Below, piece after piece: positions 1,012-24,048 of a stretch of DNA of 48,332 bases (its first letter is position 1; each line of letters opens with the position of its first letter). The notes under the pieces were generated by a model, which worked only from the letters and a program-made list of their open reading frames with translations, was not told where the DNA came from and searched no databases. The position numbers and the translations under genes were made by a program. The DNA comes from Ruminococcus sp. (GTDB lineage: Bacteria; Bacillota; Clostridia; Oscillospirales; Ruminococcaceae), in assembly GCA_017397925.1 (NCBI GenBank), contig JAFQHO010000008.1:1-48332 (forward strand), read 5' to 3'.

Positions 1012-1089
1012 ATGAATTTTTATGGGGGTTCGAAAGTCCCTATTATATTAGATTTCAGATGTAAAGTGTGTATAATTACAAATTTGTAA
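1012..1089 (+). pseudogene. truncated 25-codon ORF at the edge of the accessory segment
   Basis: ATG at 1012 is preceded by GGAAGG (1001-1006) and a good promoter at 942-970. The peptide begins MNFYGGSKVPIIL and ends at TAA inside palindrome site A. It looks like the first codons of an accessory gene cut by the junction with the signalling island; a genuine small peptide is the alternative. Evidence is limited to the start signals. Confidence 0.3.
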
Positions 1090-1090
1090 T
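1075..1090. promoter_or_regulatory. regulon palindrome site A (ATTACAAATTTGTAAT)
   Basis: Perfect 16-bp palindrome just past the sensor-kinase stop codon. On the minus strand a perfect TATAAT (1042-1047) lies exactly 28 nt downstream, the same geometry as at the lipoprotein promoters. It would start a leftward transcript near 1035, where no leftward gene exists, so this is an orphan promoter or one that makes an antisense or small RNA. Confidence 0.75.
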
Positions 1091-1094
1091 CCGG

Positions 1095-2654
1095 TCATCT
1101 TTGGAGTATCTGCTCGATCAGATTTGATTCTGTATCCGTTATCCCGTCTGACGCAGCCGGCAGCGTAAAGGTGAAGGCAGTACCCTTGCCCTCTTCGCTC
1201 TCAACGCCAATTGTGCCGCCGTGCGATTCTACGATAAATTTGCAGATAAACAGTCCGAGCCCCGTGCCGGTTTCGGAGTGCTTTCCCTTATAATAGCGCT
1301 CCCAGATGTGCGGCAGATCCTCCGGCGAAATGCCGCAGCCGGTATCTTTGACCGTAACCGTTACCGTTTCATCGTCCGCTTCTGCCTTGATGAGCACGGT
1401 TCCGTCTTTGGTATGCTTCAGCGCATTGGAGATCAGATTGACGAACACGCGCTGCAATCTGGTACTGTCCGCATGGACCGGCGGCAGGTCAATTGGGATG
1501 CGCAGTATCAGACGGTTATTGTTCTTATTCAGCACCGCAAAATAGGTCTCGACCGTTTTGCGCACAAGGCTGTCAAGATCACAGGGGGCTTTTTCCAGTA
1601 CCATTCTGCCCTCCTCAATGCGCGTCGCATCGAGGATCTGCGTCACCATGAGTGCCATGCGGTTTGCCTCGGAAGAAATGCGGCGCAGCTTATTCCGGAC
1701 GGTTGCCCTGTCGCCGCCGTGCATGAGGTCAAGCTCTGCGTCCTGCGCATAGCCGGACATGGCGGCAAGAGGCGTTTTCAGCTCATGCGATGCATCCGAA
1801 AGGAATGTTGTTTTCATCGCATTGACCTGCACCAGCATATCATGCTCGGAAACGACCGGAGCTGCGATTTTTTGGGAGAGAGCCGCAGAGATCACGAGAA
1901 ACACCGCAAATACGCAGAGAACCGCTGCGATCATCACAGACACATACTTCCGGAACATGCTGTCCAGACTGTCAAGCAGCGCATCGGTCTGCTCATCTGC
2001 ACATTCTCTGATCGGCTCCATCCAGCTGTTGACATTCTGCATGAGCACCCCGAAGCAGAGGTTGTCGCCGGTATAATTGCAGAGGTTATCCCATGCAATC
2101 ACATAGCCTGCACCGTCTTTTGAATAGGAACCGCGCTGTTGCTCCATGCAGACATCCAGCCACCCGGAAAAATCAGTCTGGCTGCCGTAGTATTCCGGCA
2201 TTTCGGCTGCTTTCTGATCGAACACGGCGATCGCATCCTGCATGATGAGGTCTGCATTGTCAGCCGTACCAAGCTCATAGCTGTGCAGCGCTTCGCCGTC
2301 ATACAGAAAGAACACATCGGCATTGTTGAAGTAATTGAACGCCTGATATTGCAGATTTTCGCGGCGGTCTTCCGCGCTCATGTCAAACTGATACAGCAGA
2401 AGCGCCATTTCCCTGCCGAAATCCCGCAGATATTGCTGCTGTGAAGACAAAAACTGCTGATAGTATGCATCGGAGACTGCGGAAACGGTCTGACCGGCAA
2501 GTTCGCCGGAATACAGATTGACATTCACCGATGCCTGCTGATAGATCATATTGAAAATAGCTGTGCAGATGCCCAGCACGGCAATCAGGCACGAGATCAG
2601 GGCAATCAAAAGCGTGCGCCGCAGCGAACGGCTTTTGGATGTATGTTTTCCCAC
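1095..2654 (-). CDS. membrane sensor histidine kinase
   Basis: A 519-aa kinase. Two membrane segments (about residues 13-38 and 238-262) bracket an extracytoplasmic domain of roughly 200 residues. Then come the phospho-acceptor helix SHELKTPLAAMSGY with His290, the N box VNLISNALKH (405-414) and the G boxes DTGCGI and GTGLGLFI. The start is set to GTG at 2654 because AAGGAG sits 8 nt upstream; an in-frame GTG at 2672 precedes the ribosome site. It should autophosphorylate and feed the divergent response regulator at 2867. The large sensor domain argues against an intramembrane-sensing BceS type. Two leftward -10 elements (2687-2692 and 2804-2809) precede it; the upstream one is phased to palindrome site B, suggesting autoregulation. 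Confidence 0.93.
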   Translation of the reverse strand: MGKHTSKSRSLRRTLLIALISCLIAVLGICTAIFNMIYQQASVNVNLYSGELAGQTVSAVSDAYYQQFLSSQQQYLRDFGREMALLLYQFDMSAEDRRENLQYQAFNYFNNADVFFLYDGEALHSYELGTADNADLIMQDAIAVFDQKAAEMPEYYGSQTDFSGWLDVCMEQQRGSYSKDGAGYVIAWDNLCNYTGDNLCFGVLMQNVNSWMEPIRECADEQTDALLDSLDSMFRKYVSVMIAAVLCVFAVFLVISAALSQKIAAPVVSEHDMLVQVNAMKTTFLSDASHELKTPLAAMSGYAQDAELDLMHGGDRATVRNKLRRISSEANRMALMVTQILDATRIEEGRMVLEKAPCDLDSLVRKTVETYFAVLNKNNNRLILRIPIDLPPVHADSTRLQRVFVNLISNALKHTKDGTVLIKAEADDETVTVTVKDTGCGISPEDLPHIWERYYKGKHSETGTGLGLFICKFIVESHGGTIGVESEEGKGTAFTFTLPAASDGITDTESNLIEQILQR

Positions 2655-2686
2655 GTGGCTCACTCCTTTCACGGACTGTGAATCTT

Positions 2687-2720
2687 ATTATACCATGTAA
2701 GCGAAGCGTTTATGGTATAA
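2687..2720. promoter_or_regulatory. divergent promoter region with mirrored -10 elements
   Basis: The inverted repeat ATTATACCAT (2687-2696) / ATGGTATAAT (2711-2720) puts a TATAAT on each strand. The leftward one serves the kinase gene and the rightward one could serve the response regulator. A further rightward TATAAT lies at 2782-2787. The -35 regions are poor, which fits activator dependence. Confidence 0.5.
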
Positions 2721-2803
2721 TCGCCCGATATGCAGGGAGCAGATCTCTGATCTGCGGATCTGCAAGGGCACAAAAATAAATTATAATGAATGCGTTTGCA
2801 TTC

Positions 2804-2853
2804 ATTATACCATATTTTTACCAAAAAATCAAACAGGATTACGATTTTGTAAT
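2804..2853 (-). promoter_or_regulatory. regulon palindrome site B with leftward -10
   Basis: ATTACGATTTTGTAAT at 2838-2853 keeps both ATTAC/GTAAT arms. The leftward TATAAT at 2804-2809 is 29 nt away, pointing at the kinase gene. The palindrome also lies 13 nt before the start codon of the response regulator, where binding could block its translation or transcription. One site could therefore activate the kinase and damp the regulator. Confidence 0.7.
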
Positions 2854-2866
2854 CGCGGAGGTTGCT

Positions 2867-3553
2867 ATGGCACATATTTTGCTTGTAGAGGATGATTCCG
2901 ATATCATGCGGATCAATCAGAACTTTCTGGAAAAAGAGGGTTATACCGTACATTGTGCGGATTCAGTTCAGCAGGCGGCATTTCTGTTGGAGGAATGCGC
3001 GCCGGATCTTGTCCTGCTTGATGTGATGCTGCCGGACGGCGACGGCATGGATTTCTGCAAAATCCTGCGGCAAAAGACACAGGCACCGGTCATATTCCTG
3101 ACTGCGCGTGACGAAAATGATGACGTCATCAAAGGATTCCGCAGCGGCGGCGATGACTATATCACCAAGCCCTATGATCTGAATGTACTGAAAGCGCGCA
3201 TCGAGGCGCAGCTTCGCCGCAATGCCAGACCGGAAGCGCAGCATCCGCGCATAGAGCTTCCGGATCTGACGATCGACCTGTTTTCCAGAACCGCAGAACT
3301 GGACGGCAATGTATGCTCCCTGCCGCAAAGAGAATTGCAGATTCTCTATCTGCTTGCATCCCGCATCGGCGCGCGCATCAGCTATCATGAGATCTATGAA
3401 ACGATCTACGGCTGCGACGTTGAAGACAGTAAAAACACGATCCGTGTCAACATATCACGCCTGAAAAAGCATCTTGCAATGGATGATATGAGCACCTATG
3501 AGATCGCCTTGACCGCAGACGGTGAATATGTCCTGCGCAGAGTGATTTTCTGA
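2867..3553 (+). CDS. OmpR/PhoB-family response regulator
   Basis: A 228-aa regulator with a receiver domain (acidic pair ED at 8-9, phospho-acceptor Asp52 in LVLLDVML, TKPYD near 101) and a C-terminal winged helix (SLPQRELQILYLLA, then NTIRVNISRLKKHL as recognition helix). The start at 2867 is fixed by GGAGG at 2857-2861 and by the usual ILLVEDD beginning; a longer frame upstream lacks a ribosome site. It is divergent from its partner kinase. Five copies of an ATTAC-N6-GTAAT palindrome in the next 10 kb are its most plausible targets, each in the position expected of an activator next to the -35. Confidence 0.93.
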   Translation: MAHILLVEDDSDIMRINQNFLEKEGYTVHCADSVQQAAFLLEECAPDLVLLDVMLPDGDGMDFCKILRQKTQAPVIFLTARDENDDVIKGFRSGGDDYITKPYDLNVLKARIEAQLRRNARPEAQHPRIELPDLTIDLFSRTAELDGNVCSLPQRELQILYLLASRIGARISYHEIYETIYGCDVEDSKNTIRVNISRLKKHLAMDDMSTYEIALTADGEYVLRRVIF

Positions 3554-3557
3554 CGCA

Positions 3558-3606
3558 ATTACAATTCTGTAATTATGCACCGGAACACAGCATAATCTGC
3601 TATAAT
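3558..3606 (+). promoter_or_regulatory. regulon palindrome site C and -10
   Basis: ATTACAATTCTGTAAT (3558-3573) with symmetric flanks (GCA / TATGC), then TGCTATAAT with its -10 at 3601-3606, exactly 28 nt from the palindrome end. The -35 position is poor. It drives the frameshifted lipoprotein gene that starts at 3629. Confidence 0.75.
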
Positions 3607-3628
3607 AAATGTATCAGAACAGCATATC

Positions 3629-4677
3629 ATGCGAAAAAAGAGCAAAAACATGAAAATGCAATGGATCATGCCGGTTCTTCTCGGTACAGCAATCTGCCTG
3701 ACCGGATGCGGTAGGCACGGTGATTTGACAGTTCAGGAGGACTCAGTTCCGCTTGTGCCGATTGAAACAGCAGTATCCGGAACATCGGGCTGGAGCTGAA
3801 TGAAAGCGGGCAATCAACGCTGACAGTCGGAACAGAGGATCATTCCGCATCGACTTCCATGCAGGGCAATTTTCTGACGGTTTGCACGGTCGATCAGGAC
3901 GATCCGGTTGACATGGTATTTTCGGTCAGCGAGGACAGAAACCAAATGACCGCCGAGCTGATGAACGGCAGGATCATTGCAGCTTTGAAACGCATCAGCC
4001 ATGACTTTTCGATCAAAGACTTTCTGAACGCAAAACCGGTGCAGGATGCCTCTGCACTGATCGGGGAATGGGTTTATGTGAATCCGCATTCTGTGCCGGA
4101 GTCGGTGATTGAAGTGCAGGCAGACGGCTCATTTTTTGAAACACTTGTCGAAAACAATCTGATCACAGCCGGAACCGTCAAAGCAGAAAACGGCGGATAT
4201 GCCTTCTATGACAGTGGGAATCATTTGTATCTGCGGTTTACACCCGATCCTCTGATACCGAACACCTATCAGGATGACAAGTCCCAAGGCGGCAGACTCG
4301 TCAGCATTGCGGAATACGAACAGCCGAATGACTGGGGCTATTATGATCCTGTGATTTACCCTGCAACCAGCATCAGCGTTGCAGGACTGAACGGAATATG
4401 GAAGAATGCAGACGGCAGCGGTGAATCCTTTGAGATCTATGACGGCAGAAGCATTTATCACGGCAGATTTGCGCTGACCGATTCGGACGGCAAAGAAGAA
4501 CTTGGTGATGTCCGGCTGCAATATCGGTATAATCAGGACGGAGAAAAGAGATTTTGCTTTACCTTCTATGGAGATAACGGGAAAATATACTATACGCTGG
4601 ATGCTTCCGGCTCGATTCCAATGAATGATCTGTTCGGCTATCAATCCGGTGAGTTGCATTTTATCAGGCAGGAATAA
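3629..4677 (+). pseudogene. frameshifted lipoprotein of the palindrome regulon
   Basis: The first part, ATG 3629 to TGA 3797-3799, encodes a lipoprotein signal (IMPVLLGTAICLTGC, lipobox LTGC) and about 30 further residues. The rest lies in another frame and reads NIGLELNESGQSTLTVG from about 3781 to the stop at 4677; an apparent first ATG at 3859 has no ribosome site. The two parts fit one lipoprotein of about 350 residues broken by a single indel between roughly 3766 and 3781. The C-terminal part has two beta-rich GxW modules (GEWVYVNP, NGIWKNADGSGE) of lipocalin-like style. No homopolymer run marks the break. Sequencing error is possible. It is the first gene after site C, so it belongs to the regulon. 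Confidence 0.7.
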
Positions 4678-4684
4678 CAACATG

Positions 4685-4717
4685 AAAACAGACAGTCTGA
4701 ACGGCTGTCTGTTTTTT
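4685..4717 (+). terminator. rho-independent terminator
   Basis: Stem AACAGACAG (4687-4695) / CTGTCTGTT (4705-4713) with a T run, directly after the frameshifted lipoprotein. Confidence 0.85.
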
Positions 4718-4765
4718 GCTGATACGGGCAAATAAGCATATTCCAAGGCTGAAAGGACACCTGCA

Positions 4766-4814
4766 ATTACAAATTTGTAATTCTGCACACAAACGCTTTA
4801 TCATTTGCTATAAT
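4766..4814 (+). promoter_or_regulatory. regulon palindrome site D and -10
   Basis: Perfect palindrome ATTACAAATTTGTAAT (4766-4781) and TGCTATAAT with its -10 at 4809-4814, again exactly 28 nt apart. It drives the SH3 lipoprotein gene at 4883. Confidence 0.8.
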
Positions 4815-4882
4815 GGCATTGTCAGCAGGAGAGCTGATGAAGCCAAATGATCAAATTCTGATAAGGCAAAGGAGAATGTACC

Positions 4883-6214
4883 ATGAAAAAGCAAATGATC
4901 GCAATCGCAGTCCTGATCGCAGCAGTCAGCCTGACCGGCTGCAACGTCAACATCAATGATGAAACCATGTCCGCAGCAAAGGATATTGCAGCTTCCGTGC
5001 CGGATGACACCGACATCAAAGTCAACGGGCAGTCCGTCGATGTTTCATTGGATTCGGACGGAAATGTCAGCGTCAACATGGAGCAAAAAGCCGCTGCAAA
5101 GCCGGGGGCAGATCTGTTCGGCGGCTATGTAATCGGAGATACCGCAGTGAAGAGTCAGCCGGATTCCAATTCTGAAACGCTGATTACAATTCCGGATGCA
5201 ACACAGATCAGCGTGAAGGAAAGCGGCGTATCCGGCTGGTTCATGACCGTATTTCAGGATCAGACCGGTTATATTGCCGCACAGTCCGTCAAGGATATTC
5301 CGCCCTATGATCCGGCACTCGGCGGTGACAATGTCCTCGGCGGTTCTGTCAATGCCGATGTCAAACTGATGAGCGGGACGCACCCCTATGCAGAGGTTCT
5401 GATTGAAATCCCGAACGGCACACAGGTCAATTATTATGCCGTTCCCGATCAATCCGGCTGGTGTGCTGTGAATTATCAGAATAAAATCGGCTATATCGAG
5501 GCAAAATATATCAGCCCGATCGAAGACTATGTGCCGGCAGAGCCGGATGTCAGCGTGCTTACCGGTGAATATCGTTATCAGCTTCGGGACGAGAAACCCG
5601 GTGAATTTTTCATTGATGAAGGATATGTAACGGTGAACGCAGACGGCACTTATATTTATCAGCCGAAGGACGGTTCGCTTCGGCAAAACGGTGTTGTGCA
5701 ACTGGAATATGACGAGCATCCGGACGGGAGCAGATCTCCGCTTTTCGTATTCCGTGAAAAAGAAAGCAACGAGGTCTGGAACGGAACATACGACTGCGAA
5801 CCGGACGGCAAGGGCGCGTTCTATCTTGGAAACGGCGGCATGGCAAGACTGCTGCCCAAAGATCAGCGTGAAGATGATTTCTCCGATTACATCGGAATCT
5901 GGCAGTACGACAGATGCACCATTCAGATCGGCGAGCAGGGTGAAGGCTATCTTGTGACAATTCACTGGGCAGACAGCGCATCCGAGGACAATGTCTGGAG
6001 CTATCAGTGCAGCGGTATGTCTGACAAAATGGGATTGGAATGCACGGGCGGCGGAACGCTGACACATATTGTCACGGCAGAGGACGGAACCGAAACTCGC
6101 ACAGTAGTATACAGCGACGGCACTGCATTTTTCCGTCAAAAGGACGGCAGACTGTTCTGGTCTGACGGCAAAGAAAACAAAGGCATGGAAATGGACTTTG
6201 AGAAGATCGGATGA
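4883..6214 (+). CDS. SH3-repeat lipoprotein, paralogue 1
   Basis: A 443-aa predicted lipoprotein: a short Lys-containing n-region, hydrophobic stretch and lipobox LTGC with Cys20. Two bacterial SH3-like modules follow: about residues 75-140 (GGYVIGDTAVKSQPDS ... SGWFMTVFQDQTGYIAA) and 150-215 (GGSVNADVKLMSG ... SGWCAVNYQNKIGYIEAKYI). The C-terminal beta-rich region contains IGIWQYDRCTI and DGRLFWSDG. GGAG precedes the ATG by about ten bases. SH3b modules usually bind cell-wall peptides, so a wall-facing sensing or binding role outside the membrane is likely. The same architecture recurs in the gene at 11395, on the opposite strand. It is monocistronic, between site D and the terminator at 6246. 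Confidence 0.85.
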   Translation: MKKQMIAIAVLIAAVSLTGCNVNINDETMSAAKDIAASVPDDTDIKVNGQSVDVSLDSDGNVSVNMEQKAAAKPGADLFGGYVIGDTAVKSQPDSNSETLITIPDATQISVKESGVSGWFMTVFQDQTGYIAAQSVKDIPPYDPALGGDNVLGGSVNADVKLMSGTHPYAEVLIEIPNGTQVNYYAVPDQSGWCAVNYQNKIGYIEAKYISPIEDYVPAEPDVSVLTGEYRYQLRDEKPGEFFIDEGYVTVNADGTYIYQPKDGSLRQNGVVQLEYDEHPDGSRSPLFVFREKESNEVWNGTYDCEPDGKGAFYLGNGGMARLLPKDQREDDFSDYIGIWQYDRCTIQIGEQGEGYLVTIHWADSASEDNVWSYQCSGMSDKMGLECTGGGTLTHIVTAEDGTETRTVVYSDGTAFFRQKDGRLFWSDGKENKGMEMDFEKIG

Positions 6215-6245
6215 TCACAGCTGAACTTCCCGAACCGCAAAACCG

Positions 6246-6283
6246 AAAACGGACGCCGGATCATCACCGGTGCCCGTTTTTTT
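6246..6283 (+). terminator. rho-independent terminator
   Basis: A 13-position stem of AAACGGACGCCGG type with an ATCATCA loop and a run of seven T, directly after the SH3 lipoprotein gene. Confidence 0.85.
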
Positions 6284-6919
6284 CATCTCAGCAGCATATT
6301 AAACTCCGCATATAATCCTGTATTTATTCCGCTGCGGCAGAATTGGTCGGAAGATATGTATTCAGCAGCCGCTCGATCCTGAACAGGATACCTATAACGT
6401 CTGTTTTTTCAAGGAATGCATCCTTGAATATAAGATGTTTATGTGAGTTTTCTCTGTCAGAATACCAGGCATTTTTTTCGTGTTTTAAGTTTTACTTTTC
6501 TATCAGAAGATACTTGTCGTCCATGTTTACCTCCTTGGAACTATACATAATCTCGATTATTCACGGGATAAGCTTATATTTAATCTCACTAAAGAAAAAG
6601 TATATGCTTCGAAATTTGATTTTTATAGGTATAGTGGAGTTCTATTACAATTCCCATTACAGTCTGTTACAAGATCTAAAGATATTGTAAACTTTATAAT
6701 ATCCAGACTTTTGATGAATTGAAACGAATGATAGATGATTATATCTATTTTTTTATAATCATCAGCACATTCAACTCAAAGCAAAACCGGCTCCGCTTAA
6801 GTTGCGGAGCCGGTTTGTTGCATAAACTTTTTAGTGACTATCATTCAAACTGTTTGTAATGTCAGTACAAAATGAAACGGTTCAATCAAACACAGCTGTC
6901 TTTTATGTAGTTCGAATTA
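6284..6919. other. AT-rich gap between convergent genes
   Basis: No convincing gene. A rightward frame at 6343-6690 has no ribosome site and an unnatural Ser/Phe/Ile-rich composition. The stretch holds only the strong bidirectional hairpin at 6783-6816. It separates the rightward SH3 lipoprotein from the leftward Hint gene. Confidence 0.5.
6783..6816. terminator. bidirectional terminator
   Basis: Near-perfect stem AAACCGGCTCCGC / GCGGAGCCGGTTT with a 7-nt loop and A/T flanks on both sides. It ends the leftward Hint gene. Confidence 0.8.
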
Positions 6920-9900
6920 TTATAATGCTAATACTGCCTGTTGATTTTCGTTAATGTGCTTGTCAACTTTGCTTTTCTCGTCAAGCCATTCTTTTGACGG
7001 TGACTGCAATTTATTGATAAACGGAATGCATCTGTTATTAATGAATGTTTCTAGAGGATCTTCAGGCTTTTTCTTTGGAATGAATATCAAAATTACAGCT
7101 ATTACAATTCCGACTATAGAAGCAATTGTACCGACAACAGGTATTGCAGCAAATACTCCGCTTGTAAGGAAGAGAGAGCCGACTTCTGCTAATAATCCGA
7201 TACCGATTGAAATTGTTTCCATTATTTGAAGCGTTTCAACTAGTGGACTTTCTCCGCTTTGGAATGCAAGAACGGTTTCGTATATCTCTACTGCCAGTGC
7301 TACTGCCATCATCGCTATATTCATTGCCTTGCCAGCTATCCTTGAAACCTTAGCAAATTTAGTAATACTTTCTGCAGCTTCTTCTGCTCTTCCACATTTT
7401 GATATTAATTCAGATGTGAATTCCCCCATTTCATTTATGGAATTTTCTACTTTAGTGCTTCCATATAATACGTTAAATACATCTTTTTCACTTTCAATAC
7501 CATTAATAATTACATCTTCTTCTCTCATCAGATTTCCTATTGATTTTGACAAGTTTTTGCAGGCTGCATAAACTGTAACATCTTTAATTGCAGATACTGC
7601 AATTAAAACAGTATTAGATATTATTGTTCCTTTTTCAAAATCTGACAGGTCATTCCAACGTAAAAATCCAGAAAATACTGTTATTAAGCCGCATGAATAT
7701 ATAACTGTAGTAAACAACTTCGGAAGACAAGGGAATTTTCTATATAGATTACTTACGCAGGTTATAACATCTCCTGCATTTATTTCAGACAAGCTAAAAA
7801 GTGTTTTTGCTATATCTGCTGAAATTGAAGATATATTCTGTATCATTTCTGATGCATCTTTATAATTCAGACTCTGTGCATAATCTTCTATTTCTTTTTT
7901 AGCTTCTGCATACATTTCTTCTGTCCAGTCAGTAAATGTTTTATGATTCAGATTATCGAAATATACTTTGAAAAATTCTTCAACTACTTTTGAAATGTAA
8001 TCTACAGATGCATTCTCTTTCCCGTCAGGAAATAGAACATTTTCAAATGCATAAAATAGAATTCCGTCTTCAACAAATTTATGAAGTGCTGCACCATAAG
8101 AATATAATTTATTTTCTTCATTATTGTTCTTTTCATCATGCGTTGTATTACTTATGTCAATATGAGGACTCTGATCAAGTATGTCAAGTATAGTACATAA
8201 ATGATTAATACGGGTATTATCAGGATCAACAAGATTTGATGTTATAAGTCCGTTGAGAACATTTGGTGATATACAGTATTCATAGAGCTTTTTTGCCCAT
8301 TTTGCACCGTTATCATTTATATATTTATTAAGTCCCGGAACATTTCTTGAATATAAATGTGGATAAATGCTGTTTGTTGAATATTTGTAGCCTTTCTGAG
8401 ATGACATACAGTTTTGATCTGTTCCCTGTAAATAAAACTTTAATTTATTTTCAGAATCCGGAGCATTATTAATCAGATCCCTGTATTTTTTAAAGTCATC
8501 ACCCGGAGCTTTTGAGTAAGAATAGCTTATATATGACAGAGCAAATTCATTAATAAAGAAATCTGAATATTGCTCTGCTAAATTAGCTTCATCGGTAGTA
8601 AGGTCATTTGCCTCAGTACCGACTGTCGGCTTTGTGATACCTATATATTTGGATACATCATCGTTACTATTATATGCTACATGAGCAGACATTTTTATAA
8701 GCTTATCAAGACTTGCTGAATGAATTGCCGATACATCCTCAGGCTGTGAAAGGTTAAAAAGATCATGCACATTTAGTTCGTCTTGGGAATTCAAAAAGCA
8801 TATTTCATCTGAATCAGGATAGTTGCAGGCAGTCATTTTGTTATTCATACTGTAAAAAGCAGCTTTTTCTTTCATAGCTTTTTTCTTATTTGCAATGTTT
8901 TCTTCCAGGGAGCCGAAAATAGTGCCAATATTGTTTTCTTCTTCTGCTTCTATGTTGTTATAACCGCAGCCTTTTACAGATTCAAAACTTGTGTCGAATG
9001 AAAACTGGCACATTTTAACTTCGCTGTTTTGAAGAGGAATAAATTGAAGCATTGCAGCACTCTTAAACTGAATTCTACTTGCAAGAATGTGCTCGGAGTC
9101 GATAAAGTAGGAGATTGACTTGCCTGTATCATATGAACTGGCAGCTTCATCCATTACCTGCTCACCATTTTCGTTTATATATTTCATTTCCCAGCGTCCA
9201 ACAGGGTAAAGTACACCGTCTTTGGCTTCATATCCCATTTCAAATGTTCCAAAATCAATGACTTCTCCGTTTTCGTGTGGCTGATATTTCATTGTATATT
9301 TGTTTGTGCTTGTGGATAAGAAAGAGAATATATTCTTGCCTCTTTTTATTATTCCTTTACCGTATAAGCCATGCTCATACATACGGAGGATACCTATTTC
9401 TTTTTCGCCGTTTTCAACTACACGCTTCCAGTAATAATTACCATCATTTATATAGAGTTTTACAGGTGTATCTTCTGAATCATCAAAGAAAATATGGTTG
9501 TTTACAATATGGATTTTTGAGCAGATAGAATCTCCAGACAAAGCATATATCTTCATTCCGATGCTGTCTATGCTCATTAATGCATTATCATCAGGTCTGA
9601 AAGATTTCAGAGGCACAACTCCGTTGGCTATATTTTCATTTTCGAGCATATCTGTCAAATAATTAATTGTTTCTTTTCCAAAGGCATTTTGTAGGTCTTT
9701 ACGGTTGTTTTTAACAAATCTTCTGAAATCTCTGTTTGCAAATACGTTTTTTGAACGTGATAATGAATCATTTATATTTTTCATTGTTATTTCAGGATAG
9801 TTTACATAGCAGACATATCCGTTTTCAGTGGTGTATGACTTGTATCCATCGGAAATATGAATATCATAGCAAAGCTTGTTATTTTCAGCGATATTTATTT

Positions 9901-11140
9901 TTTCAACCTTTACCATTTCTTCTTTTATACTTCCGTCAGGCTGCTGAATATGCTTAATAACAATATCTCCTATTTTTAACTTTGATACCTTGATCTTGTT
10001 GTTGATTTTCAGGGCTTGCTGAGGCATAGGGCATTTATATCCGTCGATGGTAAGGATCATATGATCAAGCGACATAAACGGTTCATCGTTATTAATTGAA
10101 TAAAGGAAAAGAACGTGATTGTTGAAGATGATTTCACCTGAATATTCAGACGGCATTAGTTTTTCTGATAAAAGCATATCCTTTTCTTTAAGCTGAGTTT
10201 CATCTGCAAGACTTCCGTCAGCAAGAATAAGCTTAGTACCACATAAAATACAGCCACCGCTATTATCTTCAACTTTTTTGGTGCGGGTTTTCAATGATGA
10301 CTTTTTACCACTGTAATATCGGCTTGTGGTTTCGATCCATTTCTGAACCTCGGCACCGTATGCATATGTAATAACAATATAGTTTTTGCAAATAGGTGCA
10401 CCGCTTGGTGTTATATCAATAACATCTTTCCTTTGTTCTCTTTTTATTTCCGATTCTATCATGCAATTTTCTTTGATGTCATTTTGCAGTGTATTAAATA
10501 TTTCCATACCTGATGCCAGCTGACCTTTTGGACCGTCCATCCATGGAAAATGATAAATAGATGATATAATTTTTGAATATTCAGTTGCATTCCATGCTGA
10601 CTTCAATCTTTCAGATTGTATATAACTGAGATGCTTTGTTAAAAGCCATAACAGTCTCAACGGTTGAAGGTGCTGTTCAGCAATGTCGCAGTAAACAGCC
10701 ATTCCGTTTATAAAAGCTTCTGTTGAAGCATAGTCAGTAATTTCCTTTGCAATCTGCTCATTGGCTGATGAATCGGCAAAAACATCAGGTAGATTGTCTC
10801 TAAGTACTTCAAGTGCAAGAGCTTCACCGATAGTGTGATTACTATCTTCAAAAAGTGCATTAAGGTCCTTATCTAATATATCTGAACCTAACACCATATT
10901 TCTGAGATCATAGTCACCGGTGTGTGAAATAACGTCGCTAATATATGTTCTTGCAATGTCGTTGAGCTGATCGTTGTAATTAGTGACAAGAGCAGGAATA
11001 TCCTGGCGTTCATATTTTTTAAAGAATACGTTCCTTATGTAGTTGTCAACATTATGAATGGAAACAACAAGTTTTTCTGACATGTTTGATGTAAGTTTGT
11101 CGATGTTCTTGATTTTCTGGAATAGTTCATTAATATTCAT
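6920..11140 (-). CDS. giant Hint-domain protein with pore-former-like C-terminus
   Basis: A 1406-aa protein of no family I can name. The start is ATG 11140, eight bases after GGGAG; there is no signal peptide. Residues 1-296 are mainly helical. Residues 297-447 look like a Hint/intein fold: Cys297 in GGCILCGTKLILADGS, block B FMSLDHMILTIDG, and an end block of the pattern YDIHI...ENGYVCYVN. Residues 448-900 are beta-rich, then helical. The last 350 residues contain four or more hydrophobic segments, the final one a Gly/Ala-rich hairpin (GVFAAIPVVGTIASIVGIVI) followed by PKKK, as in alpha-helical pore-forming toxins. The gene is much more AT-rich than the kinase and regulator genes. It is alone between convergent SH3 lipoprotein paralogues, without a regulon palindrome. 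Toxin-like is an inference. Confidence 0.7.
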   Translation of the reverse strand: MNINELFQKIKNIDKLTSNMSEKLVVSIHNVDNYIRNVFFKKYERQDIPALVTNYNDQLNDIARTYISDVISHTGDYDLRNMVLGSDILDKDLNALFEDSNHTIGEALALEVLRDNLPDVFADSSANEQIAKEITDYASTEAFINGMAVYCDIAEQHLQPLRLLWLLTKHLSYIQSERLKSAWNATEYSKIISSIYHFPWMDGPKGQLASGMEIFNTLQNDIKENCMIESEIKREQRKDVIDITPSGAPICKNYIVITYAYGAEVQKWIETTSRYYSGKKSSLKTRTKKVEDNSGGCILCGTKLILADGSLADETQLKEKDMLLSEKLMPSEYSGEIIFNNHVLFLYSINNDEPFMSLDHMILTIDGYKCPMPQQALKINNKIKVSKLKIGDIVIKHIQQPDGSIKEEMVKVEKINIAENNKLCYDIHISDGYKSYTTENGYVCYVNYPEITMKNINDSLSRSKNVFANRDFRRFVKNNRKDLQNAFGKETINYLTDMLENENIANGVVPLKSFRPDDNALMSIDSIGMKIYALSGDSICSKIHIVNNHIFFDDSEDTPVKLYINDGNYYWKRVVENGEKEIGILRMYEHGLYGKGIIKRGKNIFSFLSTSTNKYTMKYQPHENGEVIDFGTFEMGYEAKDGVLYPVGRWEMKYINENGEQVMDEAASSYDTGKSISYFIDSEHILASRIQFKSAAMLQFIPLQNSEVKMCQFSFDTSFESVKGCGYNNIEAEEENNIGTIFGSLEENIANKKKAMKEKAAFYSMNNKMTACNYPDSDEICFLNSQDELNVHDLFNLSQPEDVSAIHSASLDKLIKMSAHVAYNSNDDVSKYIGITKPTVGTEANDLTTDEANLAEQYSDFFINEFALSYISYSYSKAPGDDFKKYRDLINNAPDSENKLKFYLQGTDQNCMSSQKGYKYSTNSIYPHLYSRNVPGLNKYINDNGAKWAKKLYEYCISPNVLNGLITSNLVDPDNTRINHLCTILDILDQSPHIDISNTTHDEKNNNEENKLYSYGAALHKFVEDGILFYAFENVLFPDGKENASVDYISKVVEEFFKVYFDNLNHKTFTDWTEEMYAEAKKEIEDYAQSLNYKDASEMIQNISSISADIAKTLFSLSEINAGDVITCVSNLYRKFPCLPKLFTTVIYSCGLITVFSGFLRWNDLSDFEKGTIISNTVLIAVSAIKDVTVYAACKNLSKSIGNLMREEDVIINGIESEKDVFNVLYGSTKVENSINEMGEFTSELISKCGRAEEAAESITKFAKVSRIAGKAMNIAMMAVALAVEIYETVLAFQSGESPLVETLQIMETISIGIGLLAEVGSLFLTSGVFAAIPVVGTIASIVGIVIAVILIFIPKKKPEDPLETFINNRCIPFINKLQSPSKEWLDEKSKVDKHINENQQAVLAL

Positions 11141-11235
11141 AATATAATCTCCCATCTTATTAAAATTAAATAGAAAAGTTTATGGTATCATCTTTTTAAC
11201 ATTGGATATTCTATCGTAATGCAGGAAAAATTTTA

Positions 11236-11245
11236 GATCACCTCC
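11236..11245 (-). promoter_or_regulatory. orphan perfect Shine-Dalgarno (GGAGGTGATC)
   Basis: Ten bases matching the full anti-SD of 16S rRNA on the minus strand, about 95 nt before the Hint start, yet with no ATG, GTG or TTG start at usable spacing. It may be a relic of a lost gene or a ribosome standby site in the Hint leader. Confidence 0.35.
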
Positions 11246-11394
11246 GTTTGGCAGTAGTTTTCGAAAAAATATCTATGATAAAAGATGATCAGAAAACATT
11301 TAGTCAAAGTTGTGCTATCACTTGAAAACAAGGTTTGGATGCTTTAGTGTAAAAATGCATAAGGGGTGGGTTTGTGAATTATTAGGTCTATATA

Positions 11395-12435
11395 TCAGGA
11401 AATCTTCATTAATTCTGTATCATCGCCAACAATATTATCTCTTAATTCCTCCCAGATCAGATTACCATTGTCATTGAGTCGGAAATGCGCACATCCGTTG
11501 GTATAACGTACAGTGGCAGATTCATTTCCGTTCTCATCACAAATTGAATCAACGCAGAGGCCGTTGGTAGAATCGAGGTATTCTCCGTTGAATTCGCAAC
11601 TATATGTCCAGTTCGTCGATTCTGCTGCACTGCTCGACCATTTGACAGATGCTTCGTAACCTTCACCGCTTTTTGCAATGGTGATATAAATTCTGCCTAC
11701 ACTCCATGTACCGAGAAAATCATCACCTGAATGTTTTGCTATGGAAGATTCACCGGTCATATCGTAATTCTCTATTGCTTTGATATATTTGCTTTCCACA
11801 TAGCCTACATTATACTGATAATTTACAACACACCAGTTTGCATCCGAAGGGAGTAAATAATAATTAACCTGTGTGCCGTTCGGAATCGTGATAAGGCTTG
11901 TTGCATAGGAATGTATGCCGCTCATCAGATTGACATCCTTGGTGACAGAGCCGCCAAGTACATTATCACCGCCGAGTGCTGGATCATAAGGAGTAATTTC
12001 TTTTACATTGTTTGCGGGGATGTAACCTACTGTGTCCTTGAAATCCGTCATAAACCAACCGTCAATACCGCTCTCAAATACGCCTATCTGCGTTCCGTCA
12101 GGGATTGTCAGCAGCGTTTCAGAATTTGCATCTGCTGTCTTTTTTACAGTTGTATCATCTGTGACATAACCTCCGAAGATACTATTTCCGAGCTTTGCAG
12201 CTCCTGTTGAGGTGCTGTTTCCTTTGTTTTCAGATTTTATATTATCAGATTTTTTATTTGCAGCAGTTGTTGTTATCTTATTATCTTTTGATGTAACAGA
12301 TGTAGTTGTTGTTACAGCTGTAGTTTTTTTTGAAGATGTTAAGTTTTTGGTTGTTGCGCCACTTTCTGTACTTCCACATGAAACCGTGGAAACTAATAAT
12401 GTGAGTATTGCAAGACAAGATATCATTTTTTTCAT
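11395..12435 (-). CDS. SH3-repeat lipoprotein, paralogue 2
   Basis: A 346-aa predicted lipoprotein: MKKMISCLAILTLLVSTVSC with Cys20, then a long Ser/Thr/Lys-rich spacer (about 21-80) that could cross the wall. Two SH3-like modules follow (GGYVTDDTTVKKTADAN ... SGIDGWFMTDFKDTVGYI and GGSVTKDVNLMSG ... NWCVVNYQYNVGYVESKYI) and a C-terminal beta domain (LGTWSVGRIYITIAKSGEG ... NLIWEE). The modules, their linker and the C-terminal domain match the gene at 4883, which lacks the Ser/Thr spacer. GAGG precedes the ATG by eight bases. The promoter carries palindrome site E, so both paralogues answer to the same regulator. The two genes are convergent and flank the Hint gene. Confidence 0.85.
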   Translation of the reverse strand: MKKMISCLAILTLLVSTVSCGSTESGATTKNLTSSKKTTAVTTTTSVTSKDNKITTTAANKKSDNIKSENKGNSTSTGAAKLGNSIFGGYVTDDTTVKKTADANSETLLTIPDGTQIGVFESGIDGWFMTDFKDTVGYIPANNVKEITPYDPALGGDNVLGGSVTKDVNLMSGIHSYATSLITIPNGTQVNYYLLPSDANWCVVNYQYNVGYVESKYIKAIENYDMTGESSIAKHSGDDFLGTWSVGRIYITIAKSGEGYEASVKWSSSAAESTNWTYSCEFNGEYLDSTNGLCVDSICDENGNESATVRYTNGCAHFRLNDNGNLIWEELRDNIVGDDTELMKIS

Positions 12436-12491
12436 GATAATTACCTCATTTAAAATTTATTTTGCAAACTTGATGTTCTTGGTGTAATTAT

Positions 12492-12540
12492 ATAATACCA
12501 CATTGATCACGAAATGTGTTCAGAATTACAAATTTGTAAT
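12492..12540 (-). promoter_or_regulatory. regulon palindrome site E and -10
   Basis: Perfect palindrome ATTACAAATTTGTAAT (12525-12540). Leftward TATTAT at 12492-12497 is 28 nt away, the same phasing as sites A, C and D; a second possible -10, TATAAT, lies 5 nt further on (12487-12492). It drives SH3 lipoprotein paralogue 2. Confidence 0.8.
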
Positions 12541-17418: not shown

Positions 17419-17511
17419 GGTGTTTTCTGATTTTGTAGAAAATATTTATGTGTACACAAGAACCTGCATCGGTTTCCGACTGAAATGCGGTCTGACTTTA
17501 AAGGAGGAAGT

Positions 17512-17904
17512 ATGTACGGGTACAAAATAGTAAACGGTGAAGCTGTTGTATATGAGTCGGAAGCGGCAGTTATCATAAATATTTTTAACGGTTATCTTTC
17601 CGGAATGAGTTTGCGTGACGCTTCTGTAAATGCAGGCAAACCAATGGTACACAGTATGGTGAAACGCATTATACGAAATAGCTGTTATGTTGGTGATGAG
17701 TTTTATCCTGCAATTATCAGTAGGCAGACATTTGCGAGAGCCAATGCAGAACTGATACGCAGGGCAGAAAAGCATCCCAAAGGAAAACGTCTGCAAGCTC
17801 CGACATTATATACGGAGTTCAGCATTTCTGAACCGAAGATGCATTATGATGATCCTATCAGGCAAGCTGAATACGTCTACAGTCTTATCGAGGTGATAAA
17901 ATGA
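17512..17904 (+). CDS. recombinase accessory protein (Recombinase-domain only)
   Basis: A 130-aa protein resembling the central Recombinase domain of large serine recombinases without the catalytic resolvase domain: [20 protein letters not shown], then [21 protein letters not shown] and [18 protein letters not shown]. The start at 17512 follows AAAGGAGG. The stop overlaps the ATG of the next ORF (ATGA). In related elements such a short protein sits just upstream of one or two full-length serine recombinases, as here; it may be a co-factor. It looks intact although its partner is broken. Confidence 0.65.
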
Positions 17905-18896
17905 ATGTAATAAAAATACCTGCCAAACCGCAGAAAGGAAACAATGCAGTTAAAATTGAAGTTCAGAAACTTCGTGTAGCAGCCTATTGCAGAGTTTCAA
18001 CTGACAATGAGGAACAGGCATCAAGTTATGAAACACAGATTACTCATTACCGTGAATTCATTTCAGCAAATCCAGAATGGGAACTGGTCAATGTGTATGC
18101 GGATGAAGGAATCAGTGCAACTTCAACGAAAGGCAGAGAACAGTTCAACGCTATGATTGAGGATTGCAAAGAGGAAAAAATTGATATGATATTTACCAAA
18201 TCAATCAGCCGTTTTGCTCGAAATACTGTTGACTGCTTAAACTACATCCGAATGCTTAAAGAAATAAATATTCCTGTTTTCTTTGAAAAGGAATCAATAA
18301 ATACAATGGATTCCAAAGGTGAAGTTTTGCTTACAATTATGGCATCGCTGGCACAGCAGGAATCGGAGTCGCTTAGTAAAAATGTAAAAATAGGAATTCA
18401 GTATCGCTTTCAGCAGGGAAAGTAGCCGTACTTGGTGACAAGAACTATCAGTGAGGAAACTTTAAAGGCTGCATTTATTGAGGCACTCAATGAAATGGTC
18501 GGCAACAGCAGCGATTATCTGTCAAGGCTTGCTGAAAATCTTGAAGTAGCACTTAATATGGCTAATCCTATGTCGGCAGAAACTCTGTCAGCGAGAATGG
18601 CTGAACTACAACAGGAACTTATCAACAGGACAGAGCAGCGTGAGAACTATGATGACATAACAGAAGAAATCCTCCGTCTGCGTGAATTGCAGGAACAGAA
18701 AGGCATGGACGATGCTGCACAGAAAGAACACACGAAACACATTAAGGAGCTTCAAAAATTCATCCGTTCTCATTCGAGTGAGATTACGGAGTTTGATGAG
18801 ACGCTTGTGAAGCATTTGGTGGAGAGGGTGACGGTGTTCGGGGATTATCTGGTGTTTCGGTTGAAATCGGGGGTGGAGGTTGTGGTGGAGAAGTGA
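17901..18896 (+). pseudogene. serine recombinase with central deletion and in-frame stop
   Basis: The N-terminal resolvase domain is present ([19 protein letters not shown] with catalytic Ser, [25 protein letters not shown]) up to FQQGK and a TAG at 18423-18425. The same frame continues with TISEETLKAAFIEALNEMVG, a coiled coil and the C-terminal end FGDYLVFRLKSGVEV. About 200-300 residues, including the Recombinase domain and zinc ribbon, are missing. It is therefore a deletion derivative and not functional as an integrase, though the catalytic domain alone may still be made. Confidence 0.8.
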
Positions 18897-18910
18897 ATGG
18901 ATAGAGGAAA

Positions 18911-18960
18911 GCCCCTCATCTGGCAGAAAGTTATGCTCCTGCTTGGTGAGGGGGATTTTT
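18911..18960 (+). terminator. terminator after the recombinase remnant
   Basis: CCCCTCATC ... GGTGAGGGG stem with a large loop followed by GATTTTTT. It also faces the 3' end of the convergent NYN gene. Confidence 0.55.
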
Positions 18961-18964
18961 TGCT

Positions 18965-19804
18965 TTATGGTAAATCTTTCAGAAGAGGCTGAAATTGCTT
19001 TATTATCTTACTAACATTTTCTCTGGGAAGAATTTTGCACAGTTCATTATTAGCCTGCTGACGTGTATTAGCATTTACTAAGATACTAATGATTTTTTCA
19101 CGTTTCTCTTTGTACACGCCTTTTTTGAAATACTGCCCATATGCTGATCTGAACTGTGCTTCCCATTTCTTTTTATCAACTTTTGGTTTTGCTTTCGTAG
19201 AGGGGAGATTCTTTATAAATTCTTTGAATACTTTATATAATGCTGGAATGTCGCTGCTTGGTATTAGTTTAGTCAACTCCGTATTGAGTGATTGCTTATC
19301 TTGGGAATTGAGTAGTAAAGCAATAATGGCTTCTTTTTTTGCGGCATAGGGTGATTTATTGAATTTCTGACCAAAAAGAGTCCGAATCTGCGCTTCTTTT
19401 GTTGTAGGAGTGCTTGCTTTTGTGTTGGTCTGTTTCTTGACTGTTGTTTCTTGAAGCTTCTTTTTACGCTCAACTGAAATGCTGAGTTCTTTTTTCCAGA
19501 ATTTTATCACATTATCGAAATCTGTATCGTTGCTGATAATTACAATATTACATTTAGATTTTCCTGCCAAGTAGCCCAGATAGGATCCTATATGTATATC
19601 CGCAGATTGTTTTCCAGCAGGTATTTCAATCATTTTTAATTCAGCAGCACCATGATTAGCGATTTCAGCCATATCAATTTTACGAGCGTTCTGTGTAAAG
19701 AAAATTATAATATGTTCAGAAGCCGTCATATTCTTACAACCTGAAAGACCATTGCTTCCTACATTTTCATAATCCACTAAGTAATATGTGTCTATTCTAA
19801 TCAC
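18965..19804 (-). CDS. NYN/LabA-like PIN-fold protein with two C-terminal repeats
   Basis: A 279-aa protein. Residues 1-120 form a NYN (LabA/DUF88, PIN-like nuclease) domain: YYLVDYENVG at the N-terminus and IVIISNDTDFDNVIKFW supply the conserved acidic residues; a K-Q-S-A-D-I-H-I segment lies between. Two similar modules of about 60 residues follow: one at about 140-200 (IRTLFGQKFNKSPYAAKKEAII ...) and one at about 215-275 (FRSAYGQYFKKGVYKEKREKII ...). Such NYN proteins are thought to be metal-dependent RNases. The start is uncertain: GTG 19804 lies close to AAGGA. The upstream region carries clustered repeats (19815-20000), so its expression may be controlled by a repeat-binding protein. 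Confidence 0.75.
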   Translation of the reverse strand: MIRIDTYYLVDYENVGSNGLSGCKNMTASEHIIIFFTQNARKIDMAEIANHGAAELKMIEIPAGKQSADIHIGSYLGYLAGKSKCNIVIISNDTDFDNVIKFWKKELSISVERKKKLQETTVKKQTNTKASTPTTKEAQIRTLFGQKFNKSPYAAKKEAIIALLLNSQDKQSLNTELTKLIPSSDIPALYKVFKEFIKNLPSTKAKPKVDKKKWEAQFRSAYGQYFKKGVYKEKREKIISILVNANTRQQANNELCKILPRENVSKIIKQFQPLLKDLP

Positions 19805-19814
19805 TTCCTTCTAT

Positions 19815-20000
19815 GTGCGTGACAACATTTCCACGCACTCACCCCTATATCTCAATCGCAATATTTGATAAGTCCAAATTTCTTGATTTTACGCCATTCT
19901 CAATCCGTGACAACATTTTGACGCACTATCAAACGCCTGTTATCATTTTGACCCACTTTCCTCAGTGTGCAGAAATGTTGTCAGCCGTTTTCAGTGCGTA
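19815..20000. repeat. cluster of TGACAACATTTTGACGCACT-type repeats
   Basis: Copies at 19820-19839 (this one itself bracketed by GTGCGTG / CACGCAC), 19908-19927 and a weaker one near 19938-19957. Inverted copies (AAATGTTGTCAG, AGTGCGTA) lie at 19972-20000. The cluster lies between two leftward genes, where the upstream serine recombinase ends. It could be an operator for the NYN gene or an iteron-like or recombination site. Confidence 0.6.
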
Positions 20001-20089
20001 GATGTCTTTCCAGATACAGAAAAAACGATGCCGGACTTCCATGTGCGATTTTACCATACCATCGAAAATCATCGTAAAATCGGGGATTT

Positions 20090-21769
20090 TCAGTCCTTAT
20101 CCCTTGACATCAAAACCACGCACTCCATATGACAATCGTTGTCCAAACACATACTTATATCTTCTTCGATAATAGGAAGTCTGAATTTGATGGATTTTAA
20201 CCACTGTCCGTTAGTCTGTCGTTTTTCATAAATCTGCACTTCAGAAACAAGCATCTCCATAAATTGCCGTCTTTCAATCTCACTCATAACAGCATACAAT
20301 TTTTCAAAGTATACCAATACTCTATAGATATTATCGCTCGTCATCTTCTCAGCTTCAATAGCCTGTTTCTTCGCTTTTGCAGCAATCAGCAGATTTTCAA
20401 TATCCTCTATCTTATCATACATCTTGTTGAGGCGTTCGTCAAGGTCTGCCTTGCGTTTGATATAATGCCTGTCATCAAGGTCAAGAGAATCAATTTCTTC
20501 CGTCAGCTTTGCTTTTGTTGCATATGCTTGACGAAGCTGCTTTTCATAGTTCTGCAACTCCTGTTCTATCGCACTTGTATCCACCTGCATATTGATTTTA
20601 TCCTGCATCATAGCGGCAAATTTTGGCATTCTCACAAGCTTGGTGATAACCTCAGCAACAGCGTTGTCCAGCAGTTCCTCATTAATCTGCTTTTTGTAGT
20701 CACATTTATGTCCACGAGTCAAAGCACGGTGTTTGCAACCGTAATAAAAGAAATCTTTGTATTTTGTACCGTCAGGCTTACGCTTACTGCATTTGTTACC
20801 ATACATTCCTGCTCCGCATACAGGGCATTTCACAATTCCCGACAGCAGGTGAACTCTGGTATCCTTTCCACGATTCACATGTTCGTATTTTTTCGCCATA
20901 GCGAGCAGTTTCACTTGTGCAGCCTGCCATAATTCCTCTGAAACGATAGGTTGATGCACGCCGTCAACAAGCAGGAAATTCTCTTGCTCTACCATATGGT
21001 AGTCATTTCTCGTTCCTTGCTTCTTCTCTGTTTTTCTGCGACCGTAGGCGATTTTGCCACAGTAGACAGGATTCTTGATAATCTTACGGATGAGTGCAGC
21101 ATCAAACAACGGATTCTTACCATTCTGACGCTGAATTTTTTGGATACCGTTATTTGCCAGATATTTTGCAAGACCGTTTGCTCCCATATCACTATTGACA
21201 TATTGGTCGAATATTAAGCGAATCGCCTCTGCTTCTTCCTCGTTGATTTCAAGACAACCATCGACCAACTTATAGCCATACGGAGCAAAGCCACCGTTCC
21301 ACTTGCCTTCACGAGCCTTTTGAATACGTCCTTCCATAGTCTGAACACGGATGTTTTCTCGTTCGATTTCAGCAACAGCAGACAATACCGAAATCATAAG
21401 TTTGCCTGCATCCTTTGAGGAATCAATACCATCTTCAACACAAATCAGATTTACTCCAAAATCCTGCATAGTTTGCAGAGTAGACAGCACATCTGCTGCA
21501 TTTCTGCCGAATCGGGAAAGCTTGAATACAAGGACATAAGATACACCGTCCTTGCCCGACATAATGTCATCCATCATCTGATTGAACTGCACTCTGCCTT
21601 CAATGGATTTTCCCGATTTACCTGCATCCTCGTACTCGCCGACAATCTCATAATCGTAGCACTCCGCATAGGTTTTCAGTTTCTCTTTTTGAGCATCCAA
21701 AGAGTAGCCTTCCACCTGCATTGCAGTGGATACTCTTGTATAAGTATAAACCTTTTTCCTGTCTCCCAT
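20090..21769 (-). CDS. large serine recombinase (integrase)
   Basis: A 559-aa intact large serine recombinase. The resolvase domain begins YTYTRVSTAMQVEGYSLDAQ with catalytic Ser14, and FKLSRFGRNAADVLSTL carries the active-site arginines. The Recombinase domain is at about 165-290, and a zinc ribbon has CPVCGAG and later CKHR / C near 330-380. A coiled coil at 400-490 is typical of large integrases. The start at 21769 is fixed by AGGAGA eight bases upstream. Such enzymes integrate and excise elements without homologous recombination. A 46-bp inverted repeat lies in its leader, adjacent to the gene as attP sites often are. It is the only complete integrase in the window. Confidence 0.93.
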   Translation of the reverse strand: MGDRKKVYTYTRVSTAMQVEGYSLDAQKEKLKTYAECYDYEIVGEYEDAGKSGKSIEGRVQFNQMMDDIMSGKDGVSYVLVFKLSRFGRNAADVLSTLQTMQDFGVNLICVEDGIDSSKDAGKLMISVLSAVAEIERENIRVQTMEGRIQKAREGKWNGGFAPYGYKLVDGCLEINEEEAEAIRLIFDQYVNSDMGANGLAKYLANNGIQKIQRQNGKNPLFDAALIRKIIKNPVYCGKIAYGRRKTEKKQGTRNDYHMVEQENFLLVDGVHQPIVSEELWQAAQVKLLAMAKKYEHVNRGKDTRVHLLSGIVKCPVCGAGMYGNKCSKRKPDGTKYKDFFYYGCKHRALTRGHKCDYKKQINEELLDNAVAEVITKLVRMPKFAAMMQDKINMQVDTSAIEQELQNYEKQLRQAYATKAKLTEEIDSLDLDDRHYIKRKADLDERLNKMYDKIEDIENLLIAAKAKKQAIEAEKMTSDNIYRVLVYFEKLYAVMSEIERRQFMEMLVSEVQIYEKRQTNGQWLKSIKFRLPIIEEDISMCLDNDCHMECVVLMSRDKD

Positions 21770-21793
21770 CTTAGTTTCTCCTGAAAACAAAAT

Positions 21794-21846
21794 ATCGTGA
21801 GAAGTATGTACAAAAAGTTTGGACATATCTTCTCACGATTATTATA
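21794..21846 (-). promoter_or_regulatory. leader inverted repeat and -10 of the serine recombinase
   Basis: ATCGTGAGAAG(A)TATGT arms at 21794-21809 and 21823-21839 around a 13-nt A/T centre. A leftward TATAAT (21841-21846) is immediately upstream. It is either an operator/hairpin that limits integrase synthesis or part of an attachment site. Confidence 0.6.
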
Positions 21847-21872
21847 CCATGTTGTTCTGTCTTTGTCAATTG

Positions 21873-22019
21873 CTATGCGACTTTTTCATCATCTTCCGTA
21901 TGTATTTTTTCATTGGTCTCTTTTCTCGGCAGCGGCATATCATCGAAATCAAGTTCAGATGCATGCCTCTCGATTATTTCCACCAACAACTTTGCGAATC
22001 CTGTCCATTCATCGTGCAT
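21873..22019 (-). CDS. small acidic protein, 48 aa
   Basis: A short ORF with an excellent start: GGGAGGTG lies eight bases before ATG. The product begins MHDEWTGFAKLLVEIIERH and is acidic, with a helical N-terminal half and a Lys/Glu tail. It lies between the serine recombinase and the mobilisation genes, transcribed with them. Function unknown; small proteins of this kind commonly accompany clostridial integrases. Confidence 0.65.
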   Translation of the reverse strand: MHDEWTGFAKLLVEIIERHASELDFDDMPLPRKETNEKIHTEDDEKVA

Positions 22020-22057
22020 TAAGCATGCACCTCCCTTCAAACTGCAAAGCTAATTAG

Positions 22058-23775: not shown

Positions 23776-23796
23776 TTTTTCACCTCATTTTCTCGT

Positions 23797-23820
23797 CTAA
23801 GTATATCAAGATATACTTAG
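23797..23820. promoter_or_regulatory. perfect palindrome upstream of the relaxase gene
   Basis: CTAAGTATATC-AA-GATATACTTAG, 22 nt before the relaxase start. An operator for the mobilisation genes is the simplest reading; a relaxase recognition hairpin is also possible. Confidence 0.6.
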
Positions 23821-24045: not shown

Positions 24046-24048
24046 GCC

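Follow-up and report, generated by a model that had tools for sequence, protein, structure and literature searches.

A phased inverted-repeat operator and a candidate two-component regulon of exported proteins in Ruminococcus

The window analysed here, positions 1–48,332 of contig JAFQHO010000008.1 of a Ruminococcus sp. assembly (GCA_017397925.1; 2,709,615 bases in 87 contigs), carries genes for a sensor histidine kinase and an OmpR/PhoB-class response regulator together with five exact copies of the palindrome ATTAC-N6-GTAAT, each at a nearly constant distance from a −10 box. Judging from the sequence, it is likely that a dimer of the regulator binds this inverted repeat and activates the kinase gene and a family of exported-protein genes through extended −10 promoters of fixed phase. 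An earlier interpretation made from the letters of the window (hereafter the sequence-only reading) had proposed such a regulon for the regulator encoded at 2867–3553, and the proposal gains strong support from the loci of its orthologues, in which palindrome, phase and type of target are conserved; two or more phased sites are present in 14 of 14 genomes that have the regulator and in 0 of 46 that do not.

The operator–promoter unit in the window and in related loci

All five palindromes of the sequence-only reading are exact in a scan of the window (Table 1), and allowing one mismatch gave no additional site. Dinucleotide shuffles of the window predict 0.06 copies, and none of 100 shuffles reached five. 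The spacing of 28 or 29 nt reported earlier, counted to the first base of the box, corresponds to gaps of 27 nt (sites A, C, D and E) and 28 nt (site B), and the tally of four TATAAT boxes and one TATTAT was correct. In shuffled flanks, a TATNAT box at a gap of 27 or 28 nt on either side turns up at 0.6–1.6% per site, giving a product of about 1e-10. The sequence-only reading had named abundant unphased copies in the genome as one observation that would count against it. The assembly does not bear this out. It holds seven exact palindromes, five of them in the window; the other two lie on contigs C15 and C81, differ in their centres and lack a TATNAT 25–30 nt away. A backward control pattern occurs five times in the same genome; chance can thus account for a handful of exact copies per genome, though not for five within 11.5 kb.

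A search with the regulator returned 31 loci, 29 at 83–99% identity and two distant. The 29 close loci, 421,612 bases in all, contain 87 exact palindromes, or 68 once near-identical contexts are collapsed. The 29 other orders of the same five half-site letters yield a mean of 0.62 and a maximum of 4 in these loci, and the spacer of 6 is specific, every other spacer from 0 to 15 giving 0 or 1 palindrome. A phased −10 accompanies 81 of the 87 palindromes, on one side in 78 cases and on both sides in 3. Five of the six unphased copies are outer palindromes in tandem pairs; the sixth is site B of locus L059, where the kinase gene beside the regulator is missing. The idea that the palindromes arose by chance or from repeats could draw on the exact copies, many with unlike centres, found in 53 of the 60 genus genomes searched (36 and a further 24), but it is refuted by the window shuffles, the flank shuffles, the scrambled half-sites and the phasing counts, and we regard its probability as negligible.

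Collapsing near-identical phased sites (at most 6 differences) left 93 for promoter statistics, with a gap of 27 nt in 83, 28 nt in 7 and 26 nt in 3. The consensus of the 83 gap-27 sites runs from RATTACAAWTTTGTAATT through a weak NTGNACA and A-rich sequence to TGnTATAAT. In these sites the T occurs at 92% and the G at 90%, which makes them extended −10 promoters (TGn). The −35 positions had been called poor, which is fair: the best TTGACA match is at most 3 of 6 bases in 57 of the 83 sites and 4 or 5 in the other 26, against 11.8 such sites expected from shuffled spacers. Transcription starts about 7 nt after a −10, which puts the predicted centre of the palindrome near −47. This arrangement, with the palindrome upstream of a weak −35 and almost invariant in its spacing to an extended −10, is consistent with a docked dimer acting as activator.

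The same geometry bears on the possibility that the regulator is a repressor of these promoters, released on signal. Palindromes suit repressors too, extended −10 promoters can work without an activator, and the site B palindrome sits in the regulator's leader. At 81 of the 87 sites, however, the palindrome ends 26–28 nt before the −10, upstream of the −35 position and not over the core promoter; moreover, the −35 is weak and the phase is fixed nearly to one base, as activators need. We therefore consider repression unlikely and retain activation by a docked dimer.

Six distinct sequences contain two exact palindromes, all 19 nt apart from start to start, which suggests two stacked dimers. Across all fetched loci, the only other pair of exact palindromes spaced by 130 nt or less is one of 130 nt in a genome without the regulator. 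One tandem operator (L099:2169–2203) stands upstream of a gene for a PI-PLC-X domain protein, unlike other targets. The site B palindrome stops 13 nt short of the regulator's ATG. Leaving aside L058, which is cut at the gene start, the window and 28 loci give 29 sequences, and 26 of them have an exact copy in the regulator leader. The regulator gene must be transcribed from a promoter further upstream, so that binding here probably limits the regulator's own synthesis.

Table 1. Coordinates of the two-component genes, operator–promoter elements and downstream genes in the window
Feature	Position	Strand	Remarks
OmpR/PhoB-class response regulator, 228 aa	2867..3553	+	Response_reg E 2.5e-29; Trans_reg_C E 2.8e-10
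525-aa sensor histidine kinase, phospho-acceptor His296	1095..2672	-	divergent from regulator
Palindrome A	1075..1090	-	exact match; 27 nt from −10
−10 of site A, TATAAT	1042..1047	-	gap 27 nt
Palindrome B, between kinase and regulator genes	2838..2853		exact match
−10 of kinase promoter (site B), TATAAT	2804..2809	-	gap 28 nt
Palindrome C	3558..3573	+	exact match
−10 of site C, TATAAT	3601..3606	+	gap 27 nt
Palindrome D	4766..4781	+	exact match
−10 of site D, TATAAT	4809..4814	+	gap 27 nt
Palindrome E	12525..12540	-	exact match
−10 of site E, TATTAT	12492..12497	-	gap 27 nt
Lipoprotein gene, broken	3629..4677	+	stop at 3799; rest open in another frame, 3859–4677
443-aa lipoprotein with a pair of SH3b domains followed by two beta-rich modules, of which the first is lipocalin-like	4883..6214	+	SH3_3 match; model and matches
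Lipoprotein, 346 aa, SH3 domain	11395..12435	-	downstream of site E

The two-component pair, its distribution and its targets

The regulator has a receiver and a winged helix and the kinase has HisKA and HATPase_c, with Pfam matches above cut-off, as in two-component systems of the OmpR/PhoB class. The regulator's residues include Asp52, Thr79, Tyr98 and Lys101. By eye, the kinase ectodomain comprises about 190 residues; it is predicted to adopt a Cache fold, and a fold comparison ranked WalK/YycG first, but within a tie. Only HisKA and HATPase domains were found in the window kinase by Pfam at E ≤0.01, with no HAMP or PAS, and neither HAMP nor PAS was found in the kinases of two relatives at E ≤0.05. 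Two strongly diverged sensor classes serve the one regulator. In L041 and L059, a lipoprotein gene and a kinase gene that is not beside the regulator point away from each other, with a separate palindrome between them.

Close orthologues of the regulator are present in R. flavefaciens MA2007, YAD2003, Y1, 007c and ATCC 19208, in R. albus KH2T6, and in many rumen and other assemblies. With E cut-offs of 1e-30 (the first 36 genus genomes and 24 order-level genomes) and 1e-45 (the further 24 genus genomes), the regulator was found at ≥81% identity in 14 of the 60 genus genomes (9 of 36 and 5 of 24). The 24 order-level genomes gave no comparable match, the best (E 1.4e-48, 41% identity) having an internal stop. 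The phased pattern ATTAC-N6-GTAAT-N25-30-TATNAT is present in 20 of the 60 genus genomes. Each of the 14 with the regulator has 2 to 7 phased sites, for a total of 59; of the 46 without it, 40 have none, six have one match each, and none has two or more. Across the 60 genomes together, the backward control pattern matches 3 times. By eye, 6 of the 59 matches are the regulator's own coding start mimicking a −10; with these excluded, all 14 genomes still have at least two. In three of the six regulator-less genomes with a match (sites L107, L108 and L110), no gene of the exported-protein family lies downstream.

These counts also speak to whether some other DNA-binding protein owns the palindrome and has the two-component genes merely among its targets. 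Such a palindrome is unusual for an OmpR-class protein as that class is described in PMC6222199, but co-occurrence with the regulator is 14 of 14 versus 0 of 46 genomes, 26 of 29 sequences have a palindrome right next to the regulator gene, and no other common regulator gene is evident in five loci when the first 60 residues of open frames are compared. Ownership by another protein is thus highly improbable, and the response regulator remains our candidate for the palindrome.

Targets were taken mechanically as the first open frame after a phased site in the window, the 29 close loci and distal loci. The resulting 103 frames comprise 62 members of one exported-protein cluster (by BLAST), 29 kinases, 2 CotH-kinase-like secreted proteins and 10 single frames. 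The window itself matches its earlier description, with the kinase gene behind site B and lipoprotein genes behind C (broken), D and E, and distal sites in four genomes (G010, G019, G035 and G081) are again mostly before exported proteins. The cluster has a repeated module, GxW...DGTY...GTV...AFY...W, with or without SH3b domains; two positions are conserved in nearly all of 29 aligned sequences, and Pfam covers little of the family beyond the SH3 domains. Excluding frames of kinase length, 52 have a lipobox-like pattern; LPxTG is present in 10 of the 103. A joint scan of 15 longer secreted targets at E ≤0.05 matched 8 to the LPXTG anchor and 4 to dockerin I. Of the scores inspected singly, only the dockerin of L101 is above its curated cut-off, so the other anchor and dockerin assignments depend on low-scoring matches and the presence of the LPxTG string. 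Because SH3b domains are common in peptidoglycan-binding proteins, the products probably act at the wall, decorating or monitoring it; those with dockerins would reach the cellulosome. Far from the regulator locus in two genomes, CotH-kinase-like secreted proteins (L098 and L100) are encoded behind a phased palindrome with TACAAT as the −10; the CotH-kinase Pfam match is to L098 and to one member of group A5, which includes L100.

Several observations weigh against a regulon controlled by this regulator. The DNA-binding domain has SaeR and RstA as its nearest solved relatives by sequence, and OmpR-class regulators are described as often binding direct repeats (PMC6222199), so the protein itself gives no reason to expect an inverted-repeat operator. 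Exact palindrome B is missing from 3 of 29 leaders, with one mismatch in L034 and L047 and no palindrome in L054. The six single matches in regulator-less genomes amount to background, and a few targets depart from the exported theme, such as the PI-PLC-X protein of L099, which has no evident signal peptide. Furthermore, many assemblies are incomplete (64–100%), making absence of the regulator uncertain for any one genome, and the loci are akin to each other, so the counts are not independent.

Variation within the window and neighbouring DNA

Site A had been noted as a site with no gene, which the relatives explain: L031, L032 and L033 carry a lipoprotein gene of 348–354 aa at this place, which the window lacks, and homology to L031 and L032 stops at base 1041, one base beyond the −10. 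Parts of bases 1–1041 are 88–96% identical to contig C4 of the same assembly and 87–91% identical to genomes G018 and G066, and 8 of the 60 genomes have matches at E ≤0.001. This stretch, which contains small open frames and adjoins the orphan promoter, fits either a mobile element or an assembly join; a mobile element is likely.

The kinase leader of about 130 nt between the −10 and the start (approximately 2673–2803) is shared by L032 and L056 and absent from L031 and L033. It holds inverted repeats and an apparent second copy of the −10 region, as if it were a small inserted repeat element. At site C, the lipoprotein frame stops after 56 codons, and intact relatives of 435–439 aa exist. The site E stretch is AT-rich, with 35% GC compared with 50% for 1042–6220. 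In G081, a relative (L105) of the site E lipoprotein is 75% identical, and the 49 nt of operator and promoter there differ at only 2 positions; an identical copy of this 49-nt stretch is found in G023.

Just downstream of the site E lipoprotein gene is an open frame of 1411 aa (6920–11155, minus strand) with an intein/Hint-like stretch (by eye) and a hydrophobic C-terminal segment; neither Pfam nor NCBIfam gave a match at E ≤0.01, and the frame has no solved relative and no counterpart in the loci searched for one. At 17485–26120, several open frames that by eye resemble recombinases and relaxases suggest integrated mobile elements.

Proposed mechanism and comparison with known systems

We propose that the kinase senses something extracellular through its Cache-type domain and phosphorylates the regulator. 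The phosphorylated dimer would bind RATTACAAWTTTGTAATT, centred about 47 bp before the predicted transcription start and beside the weak −35, and would recruit RNA polymerase to the extended −10 promoter. The kinase gene would thereby be switched on by its own pathway, giving positive feedback, and so would the genes for exported proteins with SH3b and lipocalin-like or similar beta-rich modules. The products may be held at the membrane by lipid, at the wall by an LPxTG signal or, probably through dockerins, on cellulosome scaffolds. Binding at site B would probably limit the regulator's own transcription.

R. flavefaciens and R. albus are rumen fibre degraders, and for a candidate surface-protein circuit in both, of a kind that our literature searches did not list for them, the analysis names the operator, regulator, kinase and targets. 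The fixed geometry (a 16-bp inverted repeat, 27 nt, an extended −10 and an optional copy at 19 nt) makes a test case for inverted operators of OmpR-class regulators, and two sensor classes on one regulator offer a natural experiment in signal exchange. A target family with lipid, LPxTG or dockerin-like ends would now be tied to a signal pathway.

In its operator, the system resembles those of the BceRS type (BceR, PsdR, ApsR and pneumococcal TCS01), as the sequence-only reading correctly noted. The BceR-type operator is given as TNACA-N4-TGTAA with an AT-rich centre (PMC9020739), and the sequence described for PsdR and ApsR promoters, AnnTTACnAnnnnGTnAG (PMC10858260), is close to the operator found here; sites A, C, D and E fit the former pattern, and site B is off by one base in the left half. 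A Bce-type antimicrobial-peptide resistance module that lost its transporter could have such an operator, and L032 has an ABC ATPase and an 830-aa permease about 2 kb beyond the kinase, with FtsX-family permeases plentiful elsewhere in these genomes. That pair, however, is found in 1 of 29 relatives; at E ≤1e-8 nothing in the window or the remaining 28 loci matches its permease, and among the FtsX matches listed for the 14 regulator-bearing genomes (260 in all) none is within 19 kb of the regulator, some regulator contigs being short. Here the kinase and regulator genes are divergent and have retained no BceAB-type transporter next to them, and the targets are surface proteins. BceRS-type kinases are described as having no extracellular sensor domain (PMC7864038, PMC10858260), whereas this one has a large Cache ectodomain. 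The switch residues are Thr79 and Tyr98 rather than the Ser and Phe of BceR, BraR and NsrR, a weak criterion given that GraR and VirR have the Ser without the Phe (PMC4773095). NsrR ranks only 50th of 95 solved matches. The doubt about Bce membership already voiced in the sequence-only reading proves justified: the operator fits, but the kinase, the transporter neighbourhood and, weakly, the switch residues do not, and we hold a remnant Bce module to be very unlikely.

The WalRK (YycFG) system likewise has an OmpR-class regulator and surface targets, and WalK/YycG heads the fold matches of the predicted Cache ectodomain, though within a tie. WalK kinases carry cytoplasmic HAMP and PAS domains, which were not found in the window kinase or two relatives. 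The half-site TGTAAT fits the WalR motif TGTWAH, but WalR sites are direct repeats, TGTWAH-N5-TGTWAH (PMC4168254), and the sites here are strictly inverted: GTAAT-N6-GTAAT, which has the WalR spacing, occurs once on both strands of the 421,612 bases and the inverted repeat 87 times. WalRK is also described as present in all Firmicutes (PMC9210968), in contrast to 14 of 60 genus genomes for this system. SaeR and RstA are alike as the closest solved DNA-binding domains, and whole-protein similarity is general to the OmpR/PhoB class.

Overall, our literature searches found no paper on this regulator–operator system, and the extended −10, the 19-nt tandem operators, the palindrome in the regulator's leader, the Cache-type sensor and the two sensor classes are new here. 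A broader account, for and against which we see the case as evenly balanced, is that an OmpR/PhoB-class regulator outside the Bce group moved from the usual head-to-tail to a strict head-to-head operator, with stacked doubles at a fixed 19 nt, and controls surface display as a modular regulon in cellulolytic Ruminococcus, the sensor domain of its partner kinase swapped between two strongly diverged classes while regulator and operator stayed constant.

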